A stretch of 12,833 nt of DNA from an uncultured Ruminococcus sp. Lineage in GTDB: Bacteria > Bacillota > Clostridia > Oscillospirales > Ruminococcaceae. How positions within the stretch are numbered: the stretch's first letter is position 1; each line of letters starts with the position of its first letter. Below the pieces are notes generated by a model that was given only the letters and a program-made list of their open reading frames with translations, was not told the origin of the DNA and searched no databases. This document shows, piece by piece, positions 2,382 through 12,781 of this stretch. The translations under genes and the position numbers were made by a program. The stretch covers positions 1 to 12,833 of the forward strand of contig UQEM01000064.1 of NCBI GenBank assembly GCA_900540005.1. The letters are read 5' to 3'.

Positions 2382-2434
2382 AGTATTTCGGTATGAATAG
2401 TATGCTTATAGAGCAAATGAAAGGAGGCATTATT

Positions 2435-2479
2435 ATGATAATACGTTATTTTGCCGCCGGAGGTCTCATACGCTGTTGA
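2435..2479 (+). CDS. Putative 14-residue leader peptide ending in cysteine
   Basis: A short ORF encodes MIIRYFAAGGLIRC and ends with TGA. It begins 7 bases after AGGAGG (2422-2427, extended AAAGGAGG), a better ribosome site than the one of cysP, so it is very likely translated. Its only cysteine (TGT, 2474-2476) is the last sense codon. It sits in the 5' leader of a sulfate uptake operon, 65 bases before cysP. Small Cys-containing leader ORFs are known to control sulfur genes in other bacteria, notably actinobacteria. By analogy this one may sense charged tRNA-Cys. The peptide is not recognised as a named family; the function is inferred from position, ribosome site and the terminal cysteine. 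Confidence 0.6.
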   Translation: MIIRYFAAGGLIRC

Positions 2480-2494
2480 ACCTCCTGCGTATGA
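2459..2494 (+). promoter_or_regulatory. Mutually exclusive RNA stems with an anti-Shine-Dalgarno mimic
   Basis: Two stems interleave. Stem A pairs GGAGGT (2459-2464) with ACCTCC (2480-2485); stem B pairs TCATACGC (2466-2473) with GCGTATGA (2487-2494). Connecting segments are only 1 base long on two sides, so they probably alternate rather than form a pseudoknot. The segment ACCTCCT (2480-2486) equals the 16S rRNA anti-SD. It can also pair as CCTCCT with the leader-ORF ribosome site (2422-2427), and AACCTC (2479-2484) with GAGGTT at the cysP ribosome site (2532-2537). Stem B lacks an adjacent U-run, so control of translation is more likely than transcription attenuation. Confidence 0.5.
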
Positions 2495-2544
2495 AACGTT
2501 GCTTATCCACAATATATCGAATTTTTGAAAAGAGGTTTATTATT

Positions 2545-3570
2545 ATGAAAAACAATTTCCTTAAACTTACCGCATTCATCCTCGCCGCAGCCACAGCCGT
2601 TCTCGGATTTACAGCTTGCGGAAAAGGCAAGGCTGACGACGGTACTCTTTCTATAGTAAATGTGTCCTACGACCCGACCCGTGAACTGTACGAGGCTTAC
2701 AATGAGGCTTTCAAGGCTCACTGGGAATCCGAGCACGACACAAAGGTTGAGATAACCCAGTCGCACGGCGGTTCGGGCAAACAGGCTCTTGAAGTCGCAA
2801 ACGGCAACCCCGCAGACGTTGTAACGCTCGCGCTTGAATACGACGTTAAGGCAATTCAGGACGCAGGTCTTATCGAGGACGGCTGGATAAACGAATTTCC
2901 GCTTGACAGCTCGCCCTACACATCGACAATAGTTTTCCTTGTAAGAAAAGGCAATCCAAAGAATATCAAGGACTGGGGCGACCTCGTAAACGGTGATGTC
3001 GGAATAATCACTCCCAATCCCAAAACTTCCGGCGGTGCGCGCTGGAACTACCTTGCCGCATGGGCGTGGGCAGATAAGGAATACGGCGGTGATGAAGAAA
3101 AGATAACCGATTACATCAAAAAACTCTATGCAAATGTTCTCGTTCTCGACTCAGGCGCAAGAGGAGCAACAAACTCTTTCGTGGAAAACAAGCAGGGCGA
3201 TGTGCTCCTTGCATGGGAAAATGAAGCGTTCCTCTCATTAAAAGAATATCCCGATGAGTACGAGATCGTTACTCCGAGCATAAGCATTCTTGCACAGCCC
3301 TCAGTGGCGATCGTTGACTCGGTCGTAGATAAAAAGGGCACTCGTGAGGTCGCAACAGAATACCTCAATTATCTCTATTCAGAAGAAGCTCAGCGTATCG
3401 CAGGAGAGAATTTCTACCGTCCCTCGAACGAAAAGATACTCGCAGAATTCAGCGATGTTTTCGACCTCAGCCTTGACCTCGTAACCATTAACGACTTCGG
3501 AGGCTGGGACGCAGCTTACGAAAAGCACTTCGCTGACGGCGGCGTTTTCGACCGTATCTATGAGCAGTAA
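2545..3570 (+). CDS. cysP: Sulfate/thiosulfate-binding lipoprotein of an ABC importer
   Basis: Extracellular solute receptor that delivers sulfate (or thiosulfate) to the CysTW permease. The 341-residue product has a lipoprotein signal peptide: MKNN, hydrophobic stretch 8-22, then FTAC with Cys25 as lipid anchor; Phe at -3 is less usual than Leu. Hallmarks of the Sbp/CysP family are NVSYDPTREL (39-48), QSHGGSGKQA (72-81), ADVVTLA (90-96), TPNPKTSGGARWNYLAAW (156-173), LDSGARGAT (201-209) and DVLLAWENEA (219-228). These supply the anion-binding loops. The start at 2545 follows AGAGG (2531-2535) at 9 bases and begins directly with the signal peptide; an upstream in-frame TTG at 2476 would spoil it. 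First gene of the transporter operon; cysT begins at or just after its end. Sequence alone cannot separate sulfate from thiosulfate preference. Confidence 0.95.
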   Translation: MKNNFLKLTAFILAAATAVLGFTACGKGKADDGTLSIVNVSYDPTRELYEAYNEAFKAHWESEHDTKVEITQSHGGSGKQALEVANGNPADVVTLALEYDVKAIQDAGLIEDGWINEFPLDSSPYTSTIVFLVRKGNPKNIKDWGDLVNGDVGIITPNPKTSGGARWNYLAAWAWADKEYGGDEEKITDYIKKLYANVLVLDSGARGATNSFVENKQGDVLLAWENEAFLSLKEYPDEYEIVTPSISILAQPSVAIVDSVVDKKGTREVATEYLNYLYSEEAQRIAGENFYRPSNEKILAEFSDVFDLSLDLVTINDFGGWDAAYEKHFADGGVFDRIYEQ

Positions 3571-3583
3571 GGATCGATTTGTT

Positions 3584-4414
3584 ATGAAAAAGAAAGTAAG
3601 GATAATTCCCGGATTCGGCTTATCAATGGGCGTAACGCTGAGTCTTTTGAGCCTTGTGGTACTTATACCGCTGGCTTCGCTGGTGGTTTTCACTGCAAAA
3701 ATGGATCTCAGCAGTATTATCGAGGTCATCACAAAACCTCGTGTCGTAGCAAGCTTCAAGGTAAGTCTGTTGACCGCACTTATAGCCTCGCTCGTAAATG
3801 CGGTCATGGGAGTTGTGCTTGCTTGGGTTCTTGTAAGATATGATTTCCCACTGAAAAGACTGCTTGACGGAATGATCGAGCTTCCGTTCGCACTTCCTAC
3901 GGCAGTCGCGGGCATATCGCTCACTTCCCTCTACGCCGATACGGGTCTCATGGGTAAATTTTTCGCGAAATTCGGCATAAAGGTAGCATATACGCGCCTT
4001 GGAATTATTGTTGCGCTTATCTTCGTCGGCATTCCGTTCGTAGTCAGAGCAGTTCAGCCTGTTCTTGAAAAGCTTGACCCGCTCTATGAGGAGGCTGCCG
4101 GTATTCTCGGAGCAAGCCGTGCACAGATATTCCGCAAGGTCATTTTCCCAGAACTCCGCCCCGCGATCTTCACTGGCTTCGGTCTTGCATTCGGACGCTG
4201 CCTCGGTGAATACGGCAGCGTTGTTTTCATCGCAGGAAACAAGCCTTTCGAGACGGAGATCACTCCCCTCATCATCATGTCGGAGCTTCAGGAATTCGAC
4301 TATTCAAGCGCGACAGCGATCGCTCTCGTAATGCTCGCAGCAGCATTCCTGATACTCTTCCTCGTAAACCTTATACAGATACGCAACTCAAAAATACTGA
4401 AAGGAGGACACTGA
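3584..4414 (+). CDS. cysT: Sulfate ABC transporter permease CysT
   Basis: One of the two inner-membrane halves of the sulfate import channel. The 276-residue product has about six hydrophobic segments (around 14-36, 60-84, 100-116, 138-158, 196-218 and 244-266). The cytoplasmic EAA loop that contacts CysA is at about 169-190 (EEAAGILGASRAQIFRKVIF). LGEYGSVVFIAGN (207-219) is typical of the CysT family. Start choice: ATG 3584 follows AAGGA (3569-3573) at 10 bases. An in-frame ATG at 3560 would overlap cysP by 11 bases and add MSSKDRFV, but no ribosome site precedes it. The gene ends with a good ribosome site (AAAGGAGG) for cysW one base after its stop, so the two are translationally linked. 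Confidence 0.95.
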   Translation: MKKKVRIIPGFGLSMGVTLSLLSLVVLIPLASLVVFTAKMDLSSIIEVITKPRVVASFKVSLLTALIASLVNAVMGVVLAWVLVRYDFPLKRLLDGMIELPFALPTAVAGISLTSLYADTGLMGKFFAKFGIKVAYTRLGIIVALIFVGIPFVVRAVQPVLEKLDPLYEEAAGILGASRAQIFRKVIFPELRPAIFTGFGLAFGRCLGEYGSVVFIAGNKPFETEITPLIIMSELQEFDYSSATAIALVMLAAAFLILFLVNLIQIRNSKILKGGH

Positions 4415-4415
4415 T

Positions 4416-5276
4416 ATGGCAGCAGATACCAAAACTGCGGACACCGATATCCACGGCAGAACGAAAGGTTCAAGCGCCGTTAAATGGCTACTCATCGGCA
4501 TAAGTGTCCTCTTTCTTTTTATAATGCTCGTCCTGCCGCTGTTCACGGTAATTTCTGAGGCTTTCAGAAAGGGCTTTGCGGCTTACGCGGAAACTATTGC
4601 GGACGATGACACGATAAGCGCAGTTCTGCTCACGCTTGAAGCTACCGTCATTGCAGTCGTGATAAATACTGTTTTCGGACTTTTTGCTGCGTGGGCGGTA
4701 ACGAAATTCCACTTCAAGGGCAAAAAACTCCTCGTAACTCTCATTGACCTGCCCGTAACAGTCTCACCTATTATCGCAGGTCTCATATTCGTGCTCACAT
4801 TCGGCTCGCAGAGTCCGATATATCCGTTTTTGCAGGAGCACAACTTCCGTATCGTCTACGCTGTTCCCGGAATTATCCTTGCAACGGTTTTTGTAACATT
4901 TCCGTTCATCTCGCGTGAGATCCTCCCCGTTCTTGAGGCTCAGGGCACTGACGAAGAAGAAGCCGCGGCTATGATGGGCGCTAAGGGATTCACTATTTTC
5001 AGAAAGATAACACTTCCGCATATCCGCTGGGCGCTCGTGTATGGTATCGTCCTCTGCGCGGCACGTGCAATGGGAGAATTCGGCGCGGTTTCGGTTCTTT
5101 CTGGACATCTCCGCGGTGAAACGGTAACACTCCCGCTTCAGGTAGAGATACTTTTCGGCGACAATAAGTACGTTCCGGCATTTGCAGTATCCTCAATACT
5201 CGTAGTCCTCGCAGTTTTACTTCTCATTTTAAGAAGCGTCATTGAATACATCGGCAGAAGAAAGGGGCGCATATAA
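4416..5276 (+). CDS. cysW: Sulfate ABC transporter permease CysW
   Basis: Second permease half, pairing with CysT in the membrane. The 286-residue product has a polar N-terminal tail (1-22), then about six membrane segments (near 23-47, 69-95, 106-129, 147-165, 205-228 and 253-274). The EAA loop is at about 181-201 (EEAAAMMGAKGFTIFRKITL). The DLPVTVSPIIAGLIFVLTFG (111-130) and RAMGEFGAVSVLSGHLRGET (217-236) stretches are strongly CysW-like. AAAGGAGG precedes the start at 8 bases, inside the end of cysT. Its stop overlaps the cysA start by one base (TAATG at 5274-5278), so subunit synthesis is probably coupled. Confidence 0.95.
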   Translation: MAADTKTADTDIHGRTKGSSAVKWLLIGISVLFLFIMLVLPLFTVISEAFRKGFAAYAETIADDDTISAVLLTLEATVIAVVINTVFGLFAAWAVTKFHFKGKKLLVTLIDLPVTVSPIIAGLIFVLTFGSQSPIYPFLQEHNFRIVYAVPGIILATVFVTFPFISREILPVLEAQGTDEEEAAAMMGAKGFTIFRKITLPHIRWALVYGIVLCAARAMGEFGAVSVLSGHLRGETVTLPLQVEILFGDNKYVPAFAVSSILVVLAVLLLILRSVIEYIGRRKGRI

Positions 5277-6334
5277 TGTACATCGAGCTTAAAAACATCA
5301 ACAAGACTTACGGCGATTTCAAGGCTTCGGACAACGTAAGTTTCAGCGTTGAAAAGGGTAAACTCGTTGCTCTGCTCGGTCCGAGCGGCAGCGGCAAGAC
5401 CACCATTCTCCGTATGATAGCAGGTCTTGAAAAGCCTGACAGCGGCGATATCCTCATTGACGGCAAACGTGTGAACGACATTCCTGCAAGCAAACGCGGA
5501 ATAGGTTTCGTTTTTCAGAGCTATGCTCTTTTCAGATACATGACGGTGTACGAGAACATCGCCTTCGGCTTGAAGATACAGAAAGCCAAGAAAAAGGACA
5601 TTGACACGCGCGTAAGGGAACTTATCAAGCTTATCGGACTTGAAGGCTTTGAGCGCCGCTATCCGAGTCAGCTTTCGGGCGGTCAAAGACAAAGAGTGGC
5701 GTTTGCAAGAGCGCTTGCTCCGAATCCGCAGGTTCTTCTCCTTGACGAACCCTTCGCCGCTCTTGATGCCAAGGTAAGGCAGGATCTGAGAAGCTGGCTC
5801 AAAAACATGATCGCAAAACTCGGTATAACCAGTATTTTTGTAACTCACGACCAGAGTGAGGCAATCGAGGTTTCGGACGAGATCATCGTGACCAACAAGG
5901 GCAGGATCGAACAGACAGGTACTCCTATTGAAATATACCAGCACCCGACAACTGCTTTCACATCATCATTTTTCGGTACTGCCTCGGAACTTGAGGATTA
6001 CCGTAAATTCAGCACATTTGACGACATTGCGGAATATGACAAGGCTCTTGTCCGTCCCGAATTTGTTAAGATAACCAAGAAGAACGAGCACCAGAAGTAC
6101 AGAAGCTCTGCGGCTGACGGAGTAGTTCAAAGTACGGCATTCCGCGGTAATTTCATTGAATTCACTGTTTCATGCAACGGCAGTACTCTCATTGCAACGC
6201 GCGGACTCGACGAGTCTCCCGTAGAAGTCGGCGAAACCGTTGACGTGTTCATCTACAGGATTTTTGTGACCCACGGCGACAGCGTTACCATGCTCACCAA
6301 CAACGCACTTCGCGAGGAGTATGTAGTGATCTGA
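5276..6334 (+). CDS. cysA: Sulfate ABC transporter ATP-binding protein CysA
   Basis: Cytoplasmic ATPase that powers sulfate import. All ABC motifs of the 352-residue product are intact: Walker A GPSGSGKT (35-42), Q-loop Gln81 in FQSYALF, signature LSGGQ (133-137), Walker B LLLDEP (154-159), D-loop ALD (162-164) and H-loop His191. YALFRYMTVYENIAFGL (83-99) is the CysA-type segment after the Q-loop. The C-terminal 110 residues form the TOBE-like regulatory domain expected of this class. The start shares its A with the cysW stop; GGGGCGC just upstream is a weak ribosome site, consistent with coupling to cysW. Last gene of the operon, followed by a terminator 41 bases later. Confidence 0.96.
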   Translation: MYIELKNINKTYGDFKASDNVSFSVEKGKLVALLGPSGSGKTTILRMIAGLEKPDSGDILIDGKRVNDIPASKRGIGFVFQSYALFRYMTVYENIAFGLKIQKAKKKDIDTRVRELIKLIGLEGFERRYPSQLSGGQRQRVAFARALAPNPQVLLLDEPFAALDAKVRQDLRSWLKNMIAKLGITSIFVTHDQSEAIEVSDEIIVTNKGRIEQTGTPIEIYQHPTTAFTSSFFGTASELEDYRKFSTFDDIAEYDKALVRPEFVKITKKNEHQKYRSSAADGVVQSTAFRGNFIEFTVSCNGSTLIATRGLDESPVEVGETVDVFIYRIFVTHGDSVTMLTNNALREEYVVI

Positions 6335-6468: not shown

Positions 6469-7590
6469 ATGTATTGTATAAGTATCAATCATAAAAACGC
6501 GTCGGCGGAAATCCGCAGCCGTTTTGCTTTCAGCCGCGACAAACGTCAGGAGATATCGGCGGCTCTTTCAGAGCACGGAATAAAGCAGTCAGTTATCGTC
6601 TGTACCTGCAACCGAACCGAGCTGTACTTTATAGGCTCGGATATCGGCTGCACGGACACAGCCGCGGAGATCCTCACAAAATACTCGGGTGAAGAACCGA
6701 CCTCGGTTTCGCTGTGTCTACGCTCGTACTACGACGAAAAGGCTCTCGCGCACCTTTTCAGGGTAGCCTGCGGTATCGACTCAATGATCATCGGCGAGGA
6801 CGAAATTCTCCGTCAGGTCAAAGATGCATACGCGGAGTCTCACGAAAACGGCTTTACTGATTTTGAGCTGAATACAATTTTTCAGTCAGCAATTACCTGT
6901 GCAAAGCGTATCAAGACCGACACGGCTCTCTCAAAAACGCCGGTTTCCGCCGCTACTCTCGCAGCTAATAAAGCTGCTTCTCTCGGCGGCAGCGTGAATG
7001 TCCTTGTTATCGGTGCAAGTGGAAAAATCGGCACTTCCGCGCTGAAAAATCTCCTCTCACACAAAAACGTAAGCGTTACTGCGACTATGAGGAGCAAGGG
7101 ACTTGGAGCAGACTTTCACGACATAAGAACAGTCCCCTATCCGGAGCGATACAGGTTCGCGGACGAGGCTGACTGCATTATAAGCGCAACAGCAAGTCCG
7201 CATTACACTCTCACGGCAAGAGCGCTCGGCGAGGCGCTGAAAACCGCTAAGCCGCGCCTGCTTATCGACCTTGCTGTTCCGCACGATATCGAAAAAAACG
7301 TGAAAGAAATCGAGGGCATACGGCTCATGGACATAGATGATTTCGCGAAACTTGCCGAGCACAACAACTCGATACGTTTAAGTTCGGCTGAGGAAGCTGA
7401 AACTATCATCGCCGGGGATATTGACGAGCTGCAAAAACGGCTGTCTTTCCGCAGATTCATGCCGTATATGGCGGATTTTTCTCAGCAGCTTGACAGTATG
7501 GGAGCGGAAGGTCTCCTTTACAGACTGCGCGATAATCTCACAAGTGCGCAGTTTTCAGCCGTACTCGAAGCACTTGTATCAATGCAATAA
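6469..7590 (+). CDS. hemA: Glutamyl-tRNA reductase
   Basis: First committed step of C5-pathway tetrapyrrole synthesis: NADPH-dependent reduction of glutamyl-tRNA(Glu) to glutamate-1-semialdehyde. The 373-residue product has the catalytic Cys47 in CTCNRTE (45-51), a conserved His95 in HLFRVACGIDSMIIGE (95-110), EILRQVKDAY (112-121), and a Rossmann NADPH motif VIGASGKIG (180-188). LIDLAVPHDIEKNV lies later in the same domain. It is shorter than the 410-450 residues common elsewhere, mainly because the C-terminal dimerisation helix region is reduced. ATG 6469 is chosen because GGCGGTGAT lies just upstream and the promoter predicts initiation at about 6459; an in-frame ATG at 6439 lies upstream of that start point. 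First gene of the siroheme operon. Confidence 0.95.
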   Translation: MYCISINHKNASAEIRSRFAFSRDKRQEISAALSEHGIKQSVIVCTCNRTELYFIGSDIGCTDTAAEILTKYSGEEPTSVSLCLRSYYDEKALAHLFRVACGIDSMIIGEDEILRQVKDAYAESHENGFTDFELNTIFQSAITCAKRIKTDTALSKTPVSAATLAANKAASLGGSVNVLVIGASGKIGTSALKNLLSHKNVSVTATMRSKGLGADFHDIRTVPYPERYRFADEADCIISATASPHYTLTARALGEALKTAKPRLLIDLAVPHDIEKNVKEIEGIRLMDIDDFAKLAEHNNSIRLSSAEEAETIIAGDIDELQKRLSFRRFMPYMADFSQQLDSMGAEGLLYRLRDNLTSAQFSAVLEALVSMQ

Positions 7591-7610
7591 AGTGATCCGT
7601 AGATTTTGCT

Positions 7611-7637
7611 GCATTGCTGTGAAAATGGCGGCAATGC
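7611..7637 (+). other. Small inverted repeat between hemA and sirC
   Basis: GCATTGC (7611-7617) and GCAATGC (7631-7637) form a 7-bp stem with a 13-base loop in the 68-bp gap, the only real gap inside the hem operon. There is no U-run, so it is not a standard terminator. It lies just before the sirC ribosome site and might affect mRNA stability or differential expression of hemA. Confidence 0.4.
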
Positions 7638-7658
7638 CAGAAACAGGAGGAAAACAAC

Positions 7659-8270
7659 ATGGGATATTTCCCGTTTTACATGGACATAAGCGGCAAAAAA
7701 TGCGTAATTGTCGGCGGCGGAAAGGTTGCCCTGCGTAAGACTGAGAAACTGCTTTCATTTTCGCCAGATATCACGGTCGTAGCTCCGAAAATATGCGCGG
7801 AACTCGAAAAACTTCCGCTCACTTTTATCCGCCGCGAATTTCGTGACGCCGACCTCAGCGGCGCATTCATGGCGATCGCAGCGACCGAGGATAACGCGCT
7901 GAATACGCGCATTTCCAAGCTTTGCCGCGAAAGGAATATCCACATAAACTCTGTGGACGATATCGAAAACTGCTCCTTTATTTTCCCTGCGCTCGTACAT
8001 AAAGACGACATTACGGTCGGAATATCAACAGGCGGAACAAGTCCCGTTTTTGCGAAATTTCTGCGCATGAGTATTGAGAAACAGCTCGACGACCGTACTA
8101 TCGAAGCCGCAAGGCTGCTGAAAAACTGCCGTCCGCTCGTCATGGAAAAGTTTTCAACAGAAAATGAACGGCGCACGGTAATGGAGACTTTGCTCGAACG
8201 CTGTCTCAGCGGAGGTTCACTCCCCGAAGAAAAGGATATCGCAAAATTTCTGGAGGAAACACCCAAATGA
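7659..8270 (+). CDS. sirC: Precorrin-2 dehydrogenase / sirohydrochlorin ferrochelatase
   Basis: Converts precorrin-2 to sirohydrochlorin with NAD and, if bifunctional as in Met8p and the CysG N-terminal domain, inserts iron to give siroheme. The 203-residue product has an N-terminal NAD-binding fold with VIVGGGKVALRK (16-27). INSVDDIENCSFIFPALV (96-113) carries the conserved Asp100/101 pair, the region implicated in catalysis. STGGTSPVFAKFLR (123-136) is also family-typical. A helical C-terminal part follows; its small size leaves open whether chelatase activity is present. GGAGG (7646-7650) precedes the ATG at 8 bases. The stop overlaps the hemC start in ATGA (8267-8270). Presence of this enzyme is the main sign that the operon aims at siroheme. 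Confidence 0.92.
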   Translation: MGYFPFYMDISGKKCVIVGGGKVALRKTEKLLSFSPDITVVAPKICAELEKLPLTFIRREFRDADLSGAFMAIAATEDNALNTRISKLCRERNIHINSVDDIENCSFIFPALVHKDDITVGISTGGTSPVFAKFLRMSIEKQLDDRTIEAARLLKNCRPLVMEKFSTENERRTVMETLLERCLSGGSLPEEKDIAKFLEETPK

Positions 8271-9121
8271 AAATAAGGATAGGAACACGAAAAAGCGCAC
8301 TCGCCCTCGCGCAGACCAAGCTTGTTGAAAACGCCCTGAAAGCGGCTTTCCCCGAGATCGAGACTGAGATCGTTCACATCACGACAAAGGGAGACAAGAT
8401 CCTCGACAAGCCTCTTGACGCTATCGGTGAAAAGGGAGTTTTCATCGCCGAGATAGAACGCGCTCTCACGGAAAATGAAATCGATATCGCCGTACACAGC
8501 GCAAAGGATCTTCCGCTTGAACTTGCAGAAGGTACGCACATCGGAGCAGTTCCGGAACGTGCTGACCCTGCTGACGTTCTCGTCATGCGCAGAGGTGATT
8601 CCATTGCGGACGTAATGACCGTCGGAACGGGAAGTCTCCGCCGCCGCAACGCTTTCAACAGTATATTTGCAGGCAGAGTTTTCAACGATATCCGTGGAAA
8701 TGTTGATACACGGCTGAAAAAGCTTGAAAACGGCGAGTATGACGGAATTATCCTTGCGGCAGCAGGTCTTGAACGGCTCGGGCTTCGCAGCAGCAAGAGG
8801 TTCAGCTACATGGAGTTTGAGCCCGAATTTTTCGTACCTGCGCCATGCCAGGGAATAATTGCTGTTCAGTCACGGATCGGCGAAACGGATGAACTCCTTG
8901 CCGCGATAAATCACCCCGAGACATTTCTGTGCTTTCAGACTGAGCGGGAGGTTTTACGGCTGCTTGACGCAGGCTGTACCACTCCTGTAGGAGCTTACGC
9001 GCGTAGATCGGGTGAGCGTCTCACGCTCACGATAACTCTTGATTCAATGTCCCTCGTCACCTGCGAATGCACGGACGATAATTATGAAAAACTTGTACGC
9101 GAGGCGGTCGGAAGTCTATGA
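8267..9121 (+). CDS. hemC: Hydroxymethylbilane synthase (porphobilinogen deaminase)
   Basis: Joins four porphobilinogen units into linear hydroxymethylbilane. The 284-residue product has the N-terminal IRIGTRKSALALAQ (3-16) and HSAKDLP (77-83) with catalytic Asp81. Further family stretches are GTGSLRRR (120-127), DIRGNVDTRL (141-150) and PAPCQGIIAVQSR (191-203). Cys237 in LLDAGCTTPVGAYA is the attachment point of the dipyrromethane cofactor. It is slightly shorter than the typical 300-320 residues because of an abbreviated C-terminal domain, but all key residues are present. The start overlaps sirC by 4 bases, with GGAGG inside the end of sirC. The end overlaps the next gene by 4 bases. Confidence 0.96.
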   Translation: MKIRIGTRKSALALAQTKLVENALKAAFPEIETEIVHITTKGDKILDKPLDAIGEKGVFIAEIERALTENEIDIAVHSAKDLPLELAEGTHIGAVPERADPADVLVMRRGDSIADVMTVGTGSLRRRNAFNSIFAGRVFNDIRGNVDTRLKKLENGEYDGIILAAAGLERLGLRSSKRFSYMEFEPEFFVPAPCQGIIAVQSRIGETDELLAAINHPETFLCFQTEREVLRLLDAGCTTPVGAYARRSGERLTLTITLDSMSLVTCECTDDNYEKLVREAVGSL

Positions 9122-10554
9122 CGGGAAAAGTTTATCTTATAGGCGCAGGCTGCGGAGATCACGACCTTATCACACTCCGCGGACTTCGCCTGCTTGAAAA
9201 ATGCAGTTGTATCATATATGACGCTCTTATTGACGAGCGGCTGCTTGGTTTTGCTCCCGAAAGCGCGGAGCTTATCTGTGTCGGCAAGCGCAGCGGTCAC
9301 CACAGCGCCAAGCAGGAGGACATCAACGCGCTGATAGTGGAGAAGGCTCTTGGCAGCAAAACCGTTGCCCGTCTCAAGGGCGGCGATCCGTTTGTGTTCG
9401 GACGCGGCGGAGAGGAAATTCTCGCACTAAAGGAGCACGGGATACCTTATGCGGTAGTTCCGGGCATTTCATCATCTGTTGCAGTCGGCGAACTTGCAGG
9501 AATACCGGTAACTCACCGCAGACTCAGCCGCAGTTTTCACGTCATTACCGGACACAGTGCAGACGGCGGTGAGAATTTTGCAAAATACGCACAGCTTGGC
9601 GGTACGCTCGTTTTCCTCATGGGGCTGTCGCACATTGGCAGGATTGCGGAGAGTCTTATCGCCGGTGGCTTGTCCCCCGAAACTCCTGCCGCAGTCGTCT
9701 CAAACGGCGCAACCTCGGAGCAAAAAGCTGTTCGCAGTACTCTCGCAAATATTGTTTCCGACTCGGCAGACTGTGAAGCTCCTGCGGTCATAATAGTGGG
9801 TGAAACTGCCGCGTTTGACTTTTCGTCTACGATAAAGCTTCCTCTTACGAGCACGAAAATCGCAGTCACGGGCACGAAAAACTTTACTCATAAGCTGGCG
9901 GCTCAGCTCGGACCGCTCGGCGCTCAGGTTTATCTGCACAGTCATATCAGGATAGTGCAAAAGGGTGAAATTCCGCCGCTTGACGGCTACGGCTGTATTG
10001 CATTCACAAGTGTGAACGGAGCAAACCGATTTATTGAGCATATCCGCCGCGAAAGAATCGATATGCGCTCGCTTGCCGGGCTGAAATTTGCGGCTGTAGG
10101 CTCAGGTACGGCTTCTGCGCTTGCAGAAGTGGGAATATACGCGGATATAATCCCCGAAGTTTTCACAGTCGCAGAGCTCGCAAAGGCTATTGCCGCTAAT
10201 ATCGGAAAAGGCGAGCGTCTGCTTATCCTGCGTGCGGAAAACGGTTCACGGGAACTTAACGAAATTCTCAGTGAAAACGGCGTGGTTCTCGACGATATAA
10301 AGCTTTATGACACCGTACCCTGCACTAAGGAACTGCCCCGTGCGATAGACTGCGACTATATAGTTTTCGGCAGTTCTTTCGGAGTAAAGACCTTTTTTGA
10401 AAACAGCAGTGTCGGCGAATCTGCGAAAATCGTCTGCATAGGCACAAAAGCCGCAGAGACCGCCGAGAAATACACTGTCAATAAAATTCTGACCGCCGCT
10501 CCCCACACTTCCGAGGGCGCAGTCAAGGCGATAATGGAGGATAACAAAAAATGA
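9118..10554 (+). CDS. cobA-hemD: Fused uroporphyrinogen-III C-methyltransferase / uroporphyrinogen-III synthase
   Basis: A 478-residue two-domain enzyme. Residues 1-240 are the SAM-dependent methyltransferase that turns uroporphyrinogen III into precorrin-2. Its motifs are VYLIGAGCGDHDLITLRG (5-22), RLKGGDPFVFGRGGEE (85-100), VVPGISSSVA (113-122) and GIPVTHR (128-134). Residues about 245-478 are uroporphyrinogen-III synthase, which cyclises hydroxymethylbilane: FTSVNGANRF (296-305), VGSGTASAL (327-335), FGSSFGVKTFF (417-427), CIGTKAAETAEKYT (440-453) and APHTSEGAVKAI (461-472). The fusion is well known in clostridia. In the first motif the usual GAGPGDPD reads GAGCGDHD. ATGA overlaps couple it to hemC and hemB. 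By joining the two steps the fusion may favour flow to siroheme/corrinoids over haem. Confidence 0.95.
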   Translation: MTGKVYLIGAGCGDHDLITLRGLRLLEKCSCIIYDALIDERLLGFAPESAELICVGKRSGHHSAKQEDINALIVEKALGSKTVARLKGGDPFVFGRGGEEILALKEHGIPYAVVPGISSSVAVGELAGIPVTHRRLSRSFHVITGHSADGGENFAKYAQLGGTLVFLMGLSHIGRIAESLIAGGLSPETPAAVVSNGATSEQKAVRSTLANIVSDSADCEAPAVIIVGETAAFDFSSTIKLPLTSTKIAVTGTKNFTHKLAAQLGPLGAQVYLHSHIRIVQKGEIPPLDGYGCIAFTSVNGANRFIEHIRRERIDMRSLAGLKFAAVGSGTASALAEVGIYADIIPEVFTVAELAKAIAANIGKGERLLILRAENGSRELNEILSENGVVLDDIKLYDTVPCTKELPRAIDCDYIVFGSSFGVKTFFENSSVGESAKIVCIGTKAAETAEKYTVNKILTAAPHTSEGAVKAIMEDNKK

Positions 10555-11516
10555 GAAGATTCAGAAGGCTTCGCGCAACCGATGAACTGCGCGGACTTGT
10601 TTGCGAAACACGTTTAAGCAAAAAGGAACTTATCTACCCTATTTTTGTGGCGGAGGGTGAGAATATCAAGTCACCTGTTGACTCAATGCCGAACGTTTAT
10701 CAGTACTCGCTCGACAGAGTGGACGAAATTCTTGCCGAGATCTCAGCAAGCGGCATTTCAGGACTGCTTATTTTCGGCATTCCCGCACATAAGGACGAAC
10801 TCGCGACCGAGGCTTATAATGACAACGGGATCACTCAGCGCGCAGTACGTCTTATCAAGGAAAAGTACCCCAAACTCATCGTGATAGCGGACGTTTGCCT
10901 CTGCGAATACACCTCTCACGGTCATTGCGGGGTTGTTCACGGTCACGAGATATGCAATGACGAAACGCTGCCCCTGCTGGCAAAAATGGCTGTCAGCCTC
11001 GCGAAAGCAGGCGCGGACTTTATTGCTCCCTCCGACATGATGGACGGCAGAGTTGCGGCTTTGCGCACCGCCCTTGACGAAAACGGATTCTCCAACACCC
11101 CCATAATGTCCTACAGCGCAAAATTTGCGTCCGGATACTATTCACCGTTCCGCGATGCAGCTCAGTCTGCACCGTGTTTCGGCGACAGGCGCTCGTATCA
11201 GATGAGTCCTGCAAACGCTCGTGAGGCTCTGCGCGAGATACAAGACGATATTGATGAGGGTGCGGACATAGTTATGGTAAAGCCCGCACTTGCGTATCTT
11301 GACATTGTCCGTGCCGCACGCGACCGTTTTGACCTGCCGATAGCTACCTACAACGTCAGCGGGGAATACGCAATGGTCAAGGCTGCCGCAGCAAACGGCT
11401 GGATAGACGAAAAACGGATAGTAATGGAAAATCTCACCGCAATGAAGCGCGCAGGTGCGGATATCATCATCACCTACCATGCTCTTGATGCGGCAAAATG
11501 GCTGGAGGAAGTATGA
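10551..11516 (+). CDS. hemB: Delta-aminolevulinic acid dehydratase (porphobilinogen synthase)
   Basis: Condenses two 5-aminolevulinate molecules to porphobilinogen. The 321-residue product has both active-site lysines: Lys191 in MSYSAKFASGYYSPFRDAA (186-204) and the Schiff-base Lys244 in DIVMVKPALAYLDIV (239-253). The metal-binding stretch ADVCLCEYTSHGHCG (113-127) keeps three cysteines (116, 118, 126), which marks the zinc-dependent class. PSDMMDGRV (160-168) is also family-typical. Length is normal. It shares ATGA overlaps with cobA-hemD (10551-10554) and with hemL (11513-11516). Confidence 0.97.
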   Translation: MRRFRRLRATDELRGLVCETRLSKKELIYPIFVAEGENIKSPVDSMPNVYQYSLDRVDEILAEISASGISGLLIFGIPAHKDELATEAYNDNGITQRAVRLIKEKYPKLIVIADVCLCEYTSHGHCGVVHGHEICNDETLPLLAKMAVSLAKAGADFIAPSDMMDGRVAALRTALDENGFSNTPIMSYSAKFASGYYSPFRDAAQSAPCFGDRRSYQMSPANAREALREIQDDIDEGADIVMVKPALAYLDIVRAARDRFDLPIATYNVSGEYAMVKAAAANGWIDEKRIVMENLTAMKRAGADIIITYHALDAAKWLEEV

Positions 11517-12781
11517 ATACCGAAAAATCTGAAAAGCTCTACAGCAGAGCGCTCGACTTCATGCCGGGCGGAGTAAACAGTCCCGTCCGTGCTTACCGCA
11601 ATGTGGGCAGAAGTCCGTTGTTTATCGACCGCGCCTACGCTGACCGCATTATAGACGTTGACGGCAACGAATTTATCGACTATGTATGCTCGTGGGGGCC
11701 TGACATTCTCGGTCACGCCTTTCCGTCTGTGATCCAAGCGGTTCAAAAGCAATGCGAGAGCGGTCTTACATTCGGAGCGTGTCACGAGGGTGAAATCACC
11801 CTCGCCGAGAAGATCCGCGCGCACTTTCCGTCAATTGAAATGCTCCGCCTTGTAAACTCGGGAACTGAAGCCGTAATGAGCGCAGTTCGCGCTGCACGGG
11901 GATTCACCCACCGCGACAAGATAGTAAAGTTCGAGGGTTGCTACCACGGACACTCGGACGGACTTCTCGTAAAGGGCGGCTCGGGACTTCTCACGAATTC
12001 TATCCCGAACAGCGCAGGAGTTCCGCGTGGATTCACCGATAATACCCTCCTTGCAAGGTACAATGACCTCTCCTCCGTTGAAAAACTGTTTGAAAGCTTT
12101 GGCAGCGAGATAGCCTGCGTTATTGCAGAGCCTTGCGCGGCCAATATGGGTGTAGTTCCGCCAAACAAGGGATTTTTACAAGGACTTCGCGACATTACTG
12201 AAAAATACGGCGCGCTGTTGATCTTTGACGAGGTCATCACGGGTTTCCGCCTGAGTATCGGCGGAGCGCAGGAGTTCTACGGTGTAAAGCCCGATATGAC
12301 AGCTCTCGGAAAAATTGTCGGCGGCGGTATGCCGCTTGCAGCTTACGGCGGCAGACGCGAGATAATGGAGTGTGTAGCTCCGCTTGGTTCGGTTTATCAG
12401 GCAGGAACTCTCTCGGGCAATCCGATAGCAGTCGCGGCAGGAATCGCGGCAATAAGCGAGCTTGAACGCCGTCCCGACATCTACAGCGAACTTGATAAAA
12501 AGTCCGCCAAGATCGAAACTGCGGCACATGAGGCAGGACTTAACGCAAACCGCTGCGGCTCGCTTATGACAGTGTTCTTCACAGACAAGCCTGTAACTGA
12601 CTACGACAGCGCGGTAAGTTCTGACACAAAAAAGTACGCAGATTACTTCAATTTCCTGCTTGAGCGCGGCATCTACACAGCCCCCTCGCAGTTTGAGGCA
12701 ATGTTCGTCTCAGCGGCTCACACAGACGAGGATATCGAAAGAACCTGCGATATCATCAGGCAATATAAAAAGTCTTGCTAA
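11513..12781 (+). CDS. hemL: Glutamate-1-semialdehyde 2,1-aminomutase
   Basis: PLP enzyme that turns glutamate-1-semialdehyde, the HemA product, into 5-aminolevulinate. The 422-residue product has FMPGGVNSPVRAY (16-28), RLVNSGTEAVMSAVRAARG (112-130), YHGHSDG (144-150) and AEPCAANMG (205-213). Asp239 in LLIFDEVITGFR and the PLP-binding Lys267 in ALGKIVGGGMPLAAYGG are both present. GGAGG (11504-11508) is 4 bases before ATG 11513; the in-frame ATG at 11498 lies before that ribosome site and deep inside hemB, so it is not favoured. Last gene of the operon. Its TAA stop (12779-12781) is the first codon of the 51-bp repeat shared with the left window end. No U-run terminator is seen afterwards within the window. 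Confidence 0.97.
   Translation: MNTEKSEKLYSRALDFMPGGVNSPVRAYRNVGRSPLFIDRAYADRIIDVDGNEFIDYVCSWGPDILGHAFPSVIQAVQKQCESGLTFGACHEGEITLAEKIRAHFPSIEMLRLVNSGTEAVMSAVRAARGFTHRDKIVKFEGCYHGHSDGLLVKGGSGLLTNSIPNSAGVPRGFTDNTLLARYNDLSSVEKLFESFGSEIACVIAEPCAANMGVVPPNKGFLQGLRDITEKYGALLIFDEVITGFRLSIGGAQEFYGVKPDMTALGKIVGGGMPLAAYGGRREIMECVAPLGSVYQAGTLSGNPIAVAAGIAAISELERRPDIYSELDKKSAKIETAAHEAGLNANRCGSLMTVFFTDKPVTDYDSAVSSDTKKYADYFNFLLERGIYTAPSQFEAMFVSAAHTDEDIERTCDIIRQYKKSC

Follow-up and report, generated by a model that had tools for sequence, protein, structure and literature searches.

A candidate cysteine-sensing leader ORF with one terminal cysteine codon before the sulfate-import genes of a Ruminococcus

Could a 14-codon open reading frame (ORF) that closes on a single cysteine codon inform a sulfate transporter operon that cysteine is running short? 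The question is raised by contig UQEM01000064.1 of an uncultured Ruminococcus sp., whose full stretch of 12,833 nucleotides is the window analyzed here. In a preliminary description, slow decoding of the UGU codon under cysteine shortage was proposed to change the folding of the following RNA and thereby switch cysPTWA on.

The leader ORF and its surroundings

The leader ORF lies at 2435–2479 of the plus strand (start codon ATG 2435–2437, stop codon TGA 2477–2479) and encodes MIIRYFAAGGLIRC-UGA with the core AAGGLIRC; its assignment draws on counterparts before cysP and cysK in relatives and on the pattern of differences by codon position. The letters of the sequence give a Shine-Dalgarno (SD) motif, AAAGGAGG, at 2420–2427 (plus strand), which is separated from the ATG by a 7-nt spacer and occurs in two copies on the plus strand of the window (2420 and 4400). 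The peptide has 14 residues and one Cys, at the C-terminal end, and the UGU codon for this residue (2474–2476, plus strand), flanked by CGC (Arg) on its 5' side and by UGA on its 3' side, is the candidate sensing codon. The coordinates, the SD with its spacing, the length of the ORF and the position of its only Cys as the final residue had all been given exactly in the preliminary description.

A consensus scan (11/12) located a putative, near-consensus promoter at 2334–2362 of the plus strand, with a −35 box TTGACA (2334–2339), a 17-nt spacer and a −10 box TATTAT (2357–2362). Transcription is predicted to start near 2369, about 176 nt 5' of cysP and 66 nt 5' of the leader ATG, in agreement with the 175-base leader described earlier. 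On the same strand follow cysP (sbp, sulfate-binding protein; 2545–3570, ATG at 2545; NF008022 and TIGR00971), cysT (3560–4414; TIGR02139), cysW (4416–5276; TIGR02140) and cysA, the ATP-binding protein (5276–6334; TIGR00968), each above the cut-off of its family. By NCBIfam, the product of cysP-cysT-cysW-cysA is a sulfate transporter, which bears out the importer that had been placed downstream of the leader.

Several other features surround the operon. By eye, 2369–2412 of the window and L094, L148, L149, L150, L151, L203, L208 and L217 (L numbers denote loci, G numbers genomes) share an alike palindromic or repeated element 3' of the −10 box, exemplified in cysP and cysK promoters by AAACATAGTA...TACTATG and ATACCAAACAGATAGG. 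This element looks like a common repressor operator, which we presume may be CymR-like. Also by eye, an apparent tetrapyrrole cluster extends 3' of the transporter genes (6469–12781), with ORFs resembling hemA, siroheme synthase, hemC, cobA-hemD, hemB and hemL; given that siroheme is the cofactor of sulfite reductase, these genes and the cys operon may form one sulfur module. Divergent from the cys operon, a secreted-looking protein with four DUF4214 stretches is encoded on the minus strand (1189–2073).

Conservation, recurrence and translation

Relatives were drawn from a starting set of 80 CysP loci, the best 80 of 583, and then from the genus and two families. The genus of G001 (L001, a Ruminococcus MAG) was represented by 125 genomes; CysP matches were obtained in 12, nine of them at E ≤ 1e-160, and a short ORF with Cys near its end precedes cysP in all nine of the latter. 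Eight of these leaders carry (A/T)AGGxIRC (MKKNFNAAGGVIRC, MLRNDEFFFAAGGVIRC, MNSLFFAAGGVIRCWTSQRM, MKICQSIFTTAGGVIRC, MKDYLAAGGMIRC, MKSYFAAGGVIRCCLELTADIS, MKIFYILSTAGGLIRC and MLNRFNIKFRSTAGGMIRC), and the ninth, with RANYRFGRC, belongs to another class (MENIFEQLVRANYRFGRCRITAFAFRKTKQYL); an SD was found by script for every one except MKIFYILSTAGGLIRC. The family draw yielded CysP matches in 20 of 297 genomes (15 at E < 1e-100), and the 14 with upstream DNA reached comprised nine with a clear leader, two ambiguous cases and three with none. In the family of G004, matches were obtained in 13 of 300 genomes, nine of them at E < 1e-100; six of these nine have a clear leader, one has none, and the remaining two (G492, G385) either have two upstream ORFs (uORFs), as L116 does, or had been merged with listed loci as duplicates. 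Other classes of cysP leader are M..F..L.RANFRFGRC (L095–L098), NWRNGRMC...SDGGISYC (L003, L004, L009, L118), FRCC (L014, L122) and HNWRMCRC (L123).

Conservation of the leader ORF is more than chance. When SD-preceded, Cys-terminated ATG uORFs of 8–40 codons were counted in the 250 nt before CysP and in dinucleotide shuffles, they occurred at 14 of 57 loci of the closest-CysP set, against a shuffle mean of 0.23 (maximum 1). The distant set (L037–L080; mixed Bacilli, Proteobacteria, Clostridia and others) had one at 1 of 44 loci and none at the other 43, against a shuffle mean of 0.25 (maximum 2). A collection of 39 leaders, 28 before cysP and 11 before cysK, was chosen by eye with near relatives included, and p-values computed on it are rough for both reasons; L007, L013, L016, L020, L024, L102, L103, L108, L116, L204 and L227 were ambiguous and excluded from the counts. 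Three of the 39 (L002, L153, L219) have no recognizable SD, and the number of Cys residues, one in the window, ranges from one to few in relatives. The preliminary description had made its reading depend on whether close relatives conserve the ORF, its stop and its terminal Cys. Of these, the first and the last stand, in nine of nine genus members with a strong CysP match, whereas the adjacent stop falls as an obligatory feature: the script finds it directly behind Cys in 26 of the 39 leaders, and it lies away from Cys in L005, L100, L148 (the closest relative), L151 and L152, among others.

Some cysP loci carry other arrangements. In L007 and L116, tandem Cys uORFs, MKIINCMCHKIMLSNMFPMRQC and MKKIFIRP...SRCCQ..., lie about 100–300 nt before cysP. 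Upstream of cysP in L023 and L025 are the uORFs MIMLMVRNNWRNGRM and MVTLTIKNNRRNGRMYGIV, with the motif NWRNGRM or NRRNGRM; they end or change at the position of the relatives' Cys and are possibly decayed leaders.

The leader also recurs before cysK. A degenerate pattern for AGGxxRC-stop, searched in 347 genomes, gave 19 matches, whereas its reversed control gave 0. An in-frame ATG led by an SD accompanies seven of the matches; cysP follows in three cases and cysK in four. The four cysK leaders, with AAGGLxRC-UGA (MNRMYLCPAAGGLARC, MKRLSICAAAGGLARC, MKQLCVCMAAGGLVRC and MKRLCVCIAAGGLARC), have their stop 69–72 nt from the cysK ATG; cysK in L129 was identified by TIGR01139, and three of the four genomes were included in the CysP search and absent from its matches. 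The other 12 matches have no SD-led ATG in that frame and were set aside as chance; among them, L136 stands before another gene and has an in-frame ATG but no SD. When TGTTGA was held constant in a similar pattern, 394 genomes of the order returned seven matches, three of them known leaders (L131, L141, L142); the rest were judged by eye to be chance, as were L159–L161. Upstream regions of cysK were looked at in 33 genomes, all with cysK, and leaders were present in 11, with no recognized leader at the cysK loci looked at in the other 22; for further cysK copies, upstream DNA was fetched for part only. The seven leaders besides the four above are of the -RC or -RCC type: MLLITHKRC, MFILDQRCCR, MYILDQRCCR, MKLLTQNRVLRRC, MFKILCPLFGKRC (no SD by script), MLYIDFRCCRV and MLYIDFRCCRI.

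Wider searches returned further ORFs. One scan gave 144 matches, of which 98 were read in frame and yielded 13 RC-stop ORFs; seven are known cysP or cysK leaders, and from the other six that at G004:C28 (L232) was looked at. Two more scans gave 120 matches, 95 of them read, with 11 in-frame entries at nine places, four of them known leaders; L246, L272, L243 and L265 were rejected as leaders, lying inside regions covered by open frames of more than 120 codons, and the ninth place is G682:C11. At L232 (about 199–253), an SD-led ORF MYGIKKSDFSYRC-stop lies ahead of a gene other than cysP or cysK; this uORF is either chance or points to another target.

Codon-level differences bear on translation. 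When the 8-codon cores of the window and of the eight genus leaders of AGG type are compared in pairs, third positions differ 138 times, first positions 43 times and second positions 0 times; across 13 AGG leaders the corresponding figures are 345, 118 and 24, and the codon differences divide into 250 synonymous and 121 non-synonymous ones. The leaders in both comparisons were found by CysP homology, not by motif, while the 23-core codon table was selected with the peptide pattern GG..[RYF]C, which builds the constant Gly and Cys into it. This third-position bias argues for translation, and on these codon patterns the leader ORF is evidently both conserved and translated. At the protein level, the AAGG core is retained before cysP and cysK alike. 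Codon choice is also skewed: 36 of the 39 leaders encode Cys by UGU (L095 was scored by script on an inner UGC, although its terminal Cys is UGU), versus 1 UGU and 29 UGC in the downstream genes as far as the loci reach (p 6e-15), and the genes of the window contain 15 UGU and 45 UGC. Arg precedes Cys in 33 of 39 leaders and is always encoded by CGN (CGA 19, CGC 12, CGT 2); the search pattern demanded CGN for L129–L132 and L145, and with these five dropped CGN still accounts for 28 of 28 Arg codons before Cys. The 358 downstream Arg codons include 181 AGA/AGG and 8 CGA.

These patterns weigh on two other readings of the locus. It is exceedingly improbable that a structured RNA, such as a riboswitch or T-box, acts here with an ORF present by chance: the leader does fold better than its shuffles (2369–2565, minimum free energy −48 kcal/mol, z −2.64), but the differences cluster at third codon positions of the ORF. 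Rfam returned no family at gathering score for the window and 19 leader loci, T-box and SAM riboswitch included, and NCBIfam gave no leader-peptide family match to nine longer leaders at E up to 10, the 14-residue peptide of the window being too short for the tool. A role of the uORF only in loading ribosomes or aiding reinitiation at cysP, with no cysteine sensing, would suit a strong SD near the main gene, and reinitiation at leader genes is proposed in general terms in excerpts of PMC4833913. Such a role is nonetheless very improbable, for it leaves the conserved Cys, the UGU bias and the motif common to cysK unexplained, and all RC-stop uORFs looked at outside genes precede cysP or cysK, with L232 as the sole exception. 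A fusion or frameshift was also discarded: a TTG ORF at 2476 is in frame with cysP in the window, but the frame closes before cysP in L001, L002, L003, L004 and L009 (spacers by eye).

Pairing with the cysP Shine-Dalgarno and a possible mechanism

In the window, an anti-SD arm, UGAACCUC (2477–2484, plus strand), begins in the stop codon just after the Cys codon and is computed to pair with the cysP SD region, GAGGUUUA (2532–2539, plus strand), in a helix of 8 bp with one G-U (−10.4 kcal/mol, z −2.4 to −2.5). Two competing hairpins were recognized by eye within 2460–2493 of the plus strand, GGAGGU 2460–2465 with ACCUCC 2480–2485, or CAUACGC 2468–2474 with GCGUAUG 2487–2493, and either of them involves bases that would lie under a ribosome positioned at the Cys codon.

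Over all 39 leaders, SD pairing is weak (mean z −0.5; own versus swapped, p 0.0175). Under a split into cysP and cysK leaders that was made after the data had been seen, z < −2 at the Cys codon is reached in 9 of 28 cysP leaders, the window included, and in 0 of 11 cysK leaders; the other 19 cysP leaders do not reach this threshold, and z is above +1 in four. The number of cysP leaders with z < −2 depends on the offset, with nine at 0, seven at −5 and +5, and 0–4 elsewhere. Own leader–SD pairs of cysP beat swapped ones (p 0.0016, n = 28), and still do so in a less redundant set of 23 leaders (p 0.0026). As a control, five upstream regions were taken at each of 81 loci that lack a counted leader; the count among these 405 was 23, for Fisher values of 5e-5, or 0.001 without two near-duplicates, which are rough because the control regions overlap.

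The arms themselves differ between species: UUGAAUAC pairs with GUAUUCAA in L001, UAAUAACCUUUUUC with GAAAGAGGUUAUUA in L097, and AACCUUGUUUCAU with AUGAAAUGAGGUU in L099, which, together with the window, argues that the helix is maintained. The distance from Cys to the stop is 10 residues in L100 and 14 in L152, yet the anti-SD starts at most 6 nt from the Cys codon; the arm tracks the Cys codon, not the stop. SD exposure was modeled with a ribosome placed at Cys for 21 of the 39 leaders, a placement that lowers structure by construction. The modeled probability that the SD is unpaired rises from 0.00 to 0.71 in L097 (about 20 bp), from 0.03 to 0.50 in L099 and from 0.23 to 0.56 in L001, the gain being smaller in L100 and L154 and about nil in most other leaders. 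In the window it rises from 0.15 to 0.22, a small gain that we attribute to competition by the other hairpins. The earlier proposal that RNA after the Cys codon changes its folding thus gains support, in that nine of 28 cysP leaders, including that of the window, could pair RNA from the Cys codon onward with the cysP SD, the effect being centered on that codon.

We consider it likely that the leader is a cysteine-responsive translation attenuator of cysPTWA, which probably turns sulfate uptake on at cysteine shortage. Recruited by the strong SD, a ribosome would translate the leader ORF as far as the single terminal UGU. With ample Cys-tRNA it would pass UGU, terminate and depart; in the vacated leader, the RNA from the Cys codon on could then pair with the cysP SD, so that cysPTWA would be poorly translated. 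With scarce Cys-tRNA, the ribosome would wait at UGU and cover the anti-SD arm, cysP would be translated, and sulfate would be imported. We infer the pause at UGU, Cys-tRNA as the signal and the direction of the switch; this direction fits physiology, because sulfate import and cysteine synthesis should rise when Cys-tRNA is scarce. SD pairing leaves the action of the cysK leaders unexplained.

Control could alternatively lie in transcription, the ribosome at the Cys codon setting a terminator against an antiterminator or exposing a Rho site. Such attenuation would accommodate the cysK leaders without SD pairing; L007 shows a Cys uORF (...MRQC), a terminator-like hairpin (by eye) and a second Cys uORF, and L116 both uORFs. 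A Rho option was put forward for actinobacterial cys leaders in excerpts of PMC1262725. Between 2479 and 2545 of the window, however, no terminator-like site was found, and the position-specific SD pairing of cysP leaders speaks for translation; transcription attenuation is accordingly quite improbable.

Peptides such as TnaC and SpeFL stall their own ribosome in response to a small molecule. Here, an AAGGxIRC peptide could arrest its ribosome at the Cys codon or stop on a small molecule and so free the cysP SD, a reading that we regard as unlikely. The amino-acid conservation of AAGG before cysP and cysK exceeds what a bare codon sensor needs, and in the 26 leaders noted above the stop directly adjoins Cys. 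Against arrest, AAGG is absent from short cysK leaders (MLLITHKRC, MFILDQRCCR) and from the RANFRFGRC class, the stop adjacency typical of TnaC and SpeFL is missing in several leaders, L005, L100, L148, L151 and L152 among them, and stalling on surplus cysteine would act in the wrong direction for sulfate import.

The excess conservation of AAGG nevertheless allows for a role of the nascent chain within the attenuator favored here. By classical standards, one Cys codon alone senses starvation weakly, and some codons are known to be decoded slowly. We tentatively suggest, as a possibility that falls short of likely, a single-codon sensor tuned by its peptide, in which the nascent AAGGxIR or RANFRFGR and a maybe-slow CGA-UGU or CGC-UGU pair would sensitize the one Cys codon. 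Several clostridial groups would have this cassette in front of various sulfur genes, and in many cysP leaders the arm that masks the SD would be arranged to start at the sensing codon itself.

Known cysteine leaders and the clostridial variant

That leader ORFs with Cys codons regulate sulfur genes in other lineages, as the preliminary description stated, agrees with excerpts of the literature on Actinobacteria (PMC1262725, PMC13236596) and Rhodobacterales (PMC8632094). Mycobacterial polycysteine uORFs have been described as cysteine-responsive attenuators (Canestrari 2020, as cited in excerpts of PMC13236596 and PMC9094748). Like the leaders described here, they are Cys-codon uORFs before cysteine-biosynthesis genes, acting in M. 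smegmatis by translation attenuation according to the excerpts of PMC13236596. As these excerpts describe them, they are leaderless and polycysteine, whereas the clostridial leaders have a strong SD, one or sometimes more Cys and an AAGGxIRC or -RC core, before sulfate import genes and cysK; the window has neither a Cys run (one Cys) nor a leaderless start (SD AAAGGAGG, with transcription predicted to begin upstream of the ATG as above).

In 2005, candidate Cys leader peptides were reported for cys operons of Mycobacterium and Propionibacterium acnes and for cbs of Bifidobacterium longum (excerpts of PMC1262725). These resemble the present leaders in having Cys codons near the stop and no conserved terminator, but in the same excerpts they contain runs of Cys codons and their action is left open, whereas the window has a single codon and SD complementarity starts from that codon in a subset of leaders. 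Before cysS of Rhodobacterales, the predicted uORFC-8-2 is likewise a short ORF with Cys codons, proposed to sense charged tRNA-Cys; it differs, as far as the excerpts of PMC8632094 describe it, in its two tandem Cys codons, mostly UGC, and its intrinsic terminator, the window having UGU and no terminator found. Within Firmicutes, a 2010 survey described His leader peptides before hisS and hisZ of Bacilli (excerpts of PMC2965389), which are amino-acid leader peptides as well but with histidine codons and premature terminators. The cysteine response of C. perfringens is the topic of PMC2940859, and among the matches listed in the open-licence literature no cysteine leader peptide was described in Clostridia.

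Set beside ribosome-mediated cysteine attenuators in general, the window has the short ORF with a Cys codon before a sulfur gene, and its translation is deduced from codon patterns. As for ribosome-governed structures, the SD complementarity is position-specific in the cysP subset, missing from the cysK leaders and modest in the window. These comparisons suggest that the kind of leader is known and that the clostridial form before cysP and cysK, with a single Cys in the window, is a new variant.

If this reading is true, sulfur assimilation in gut and rumen Clostridia is under ribosome-mediated cysteine control. Furthermore, the leaders are tiny natural switches in which the single codon, its neighbors and the anti-SD arm can be changed separately, and they could show how one codon senses and whether the nascent peptide sharpens codon sensing.
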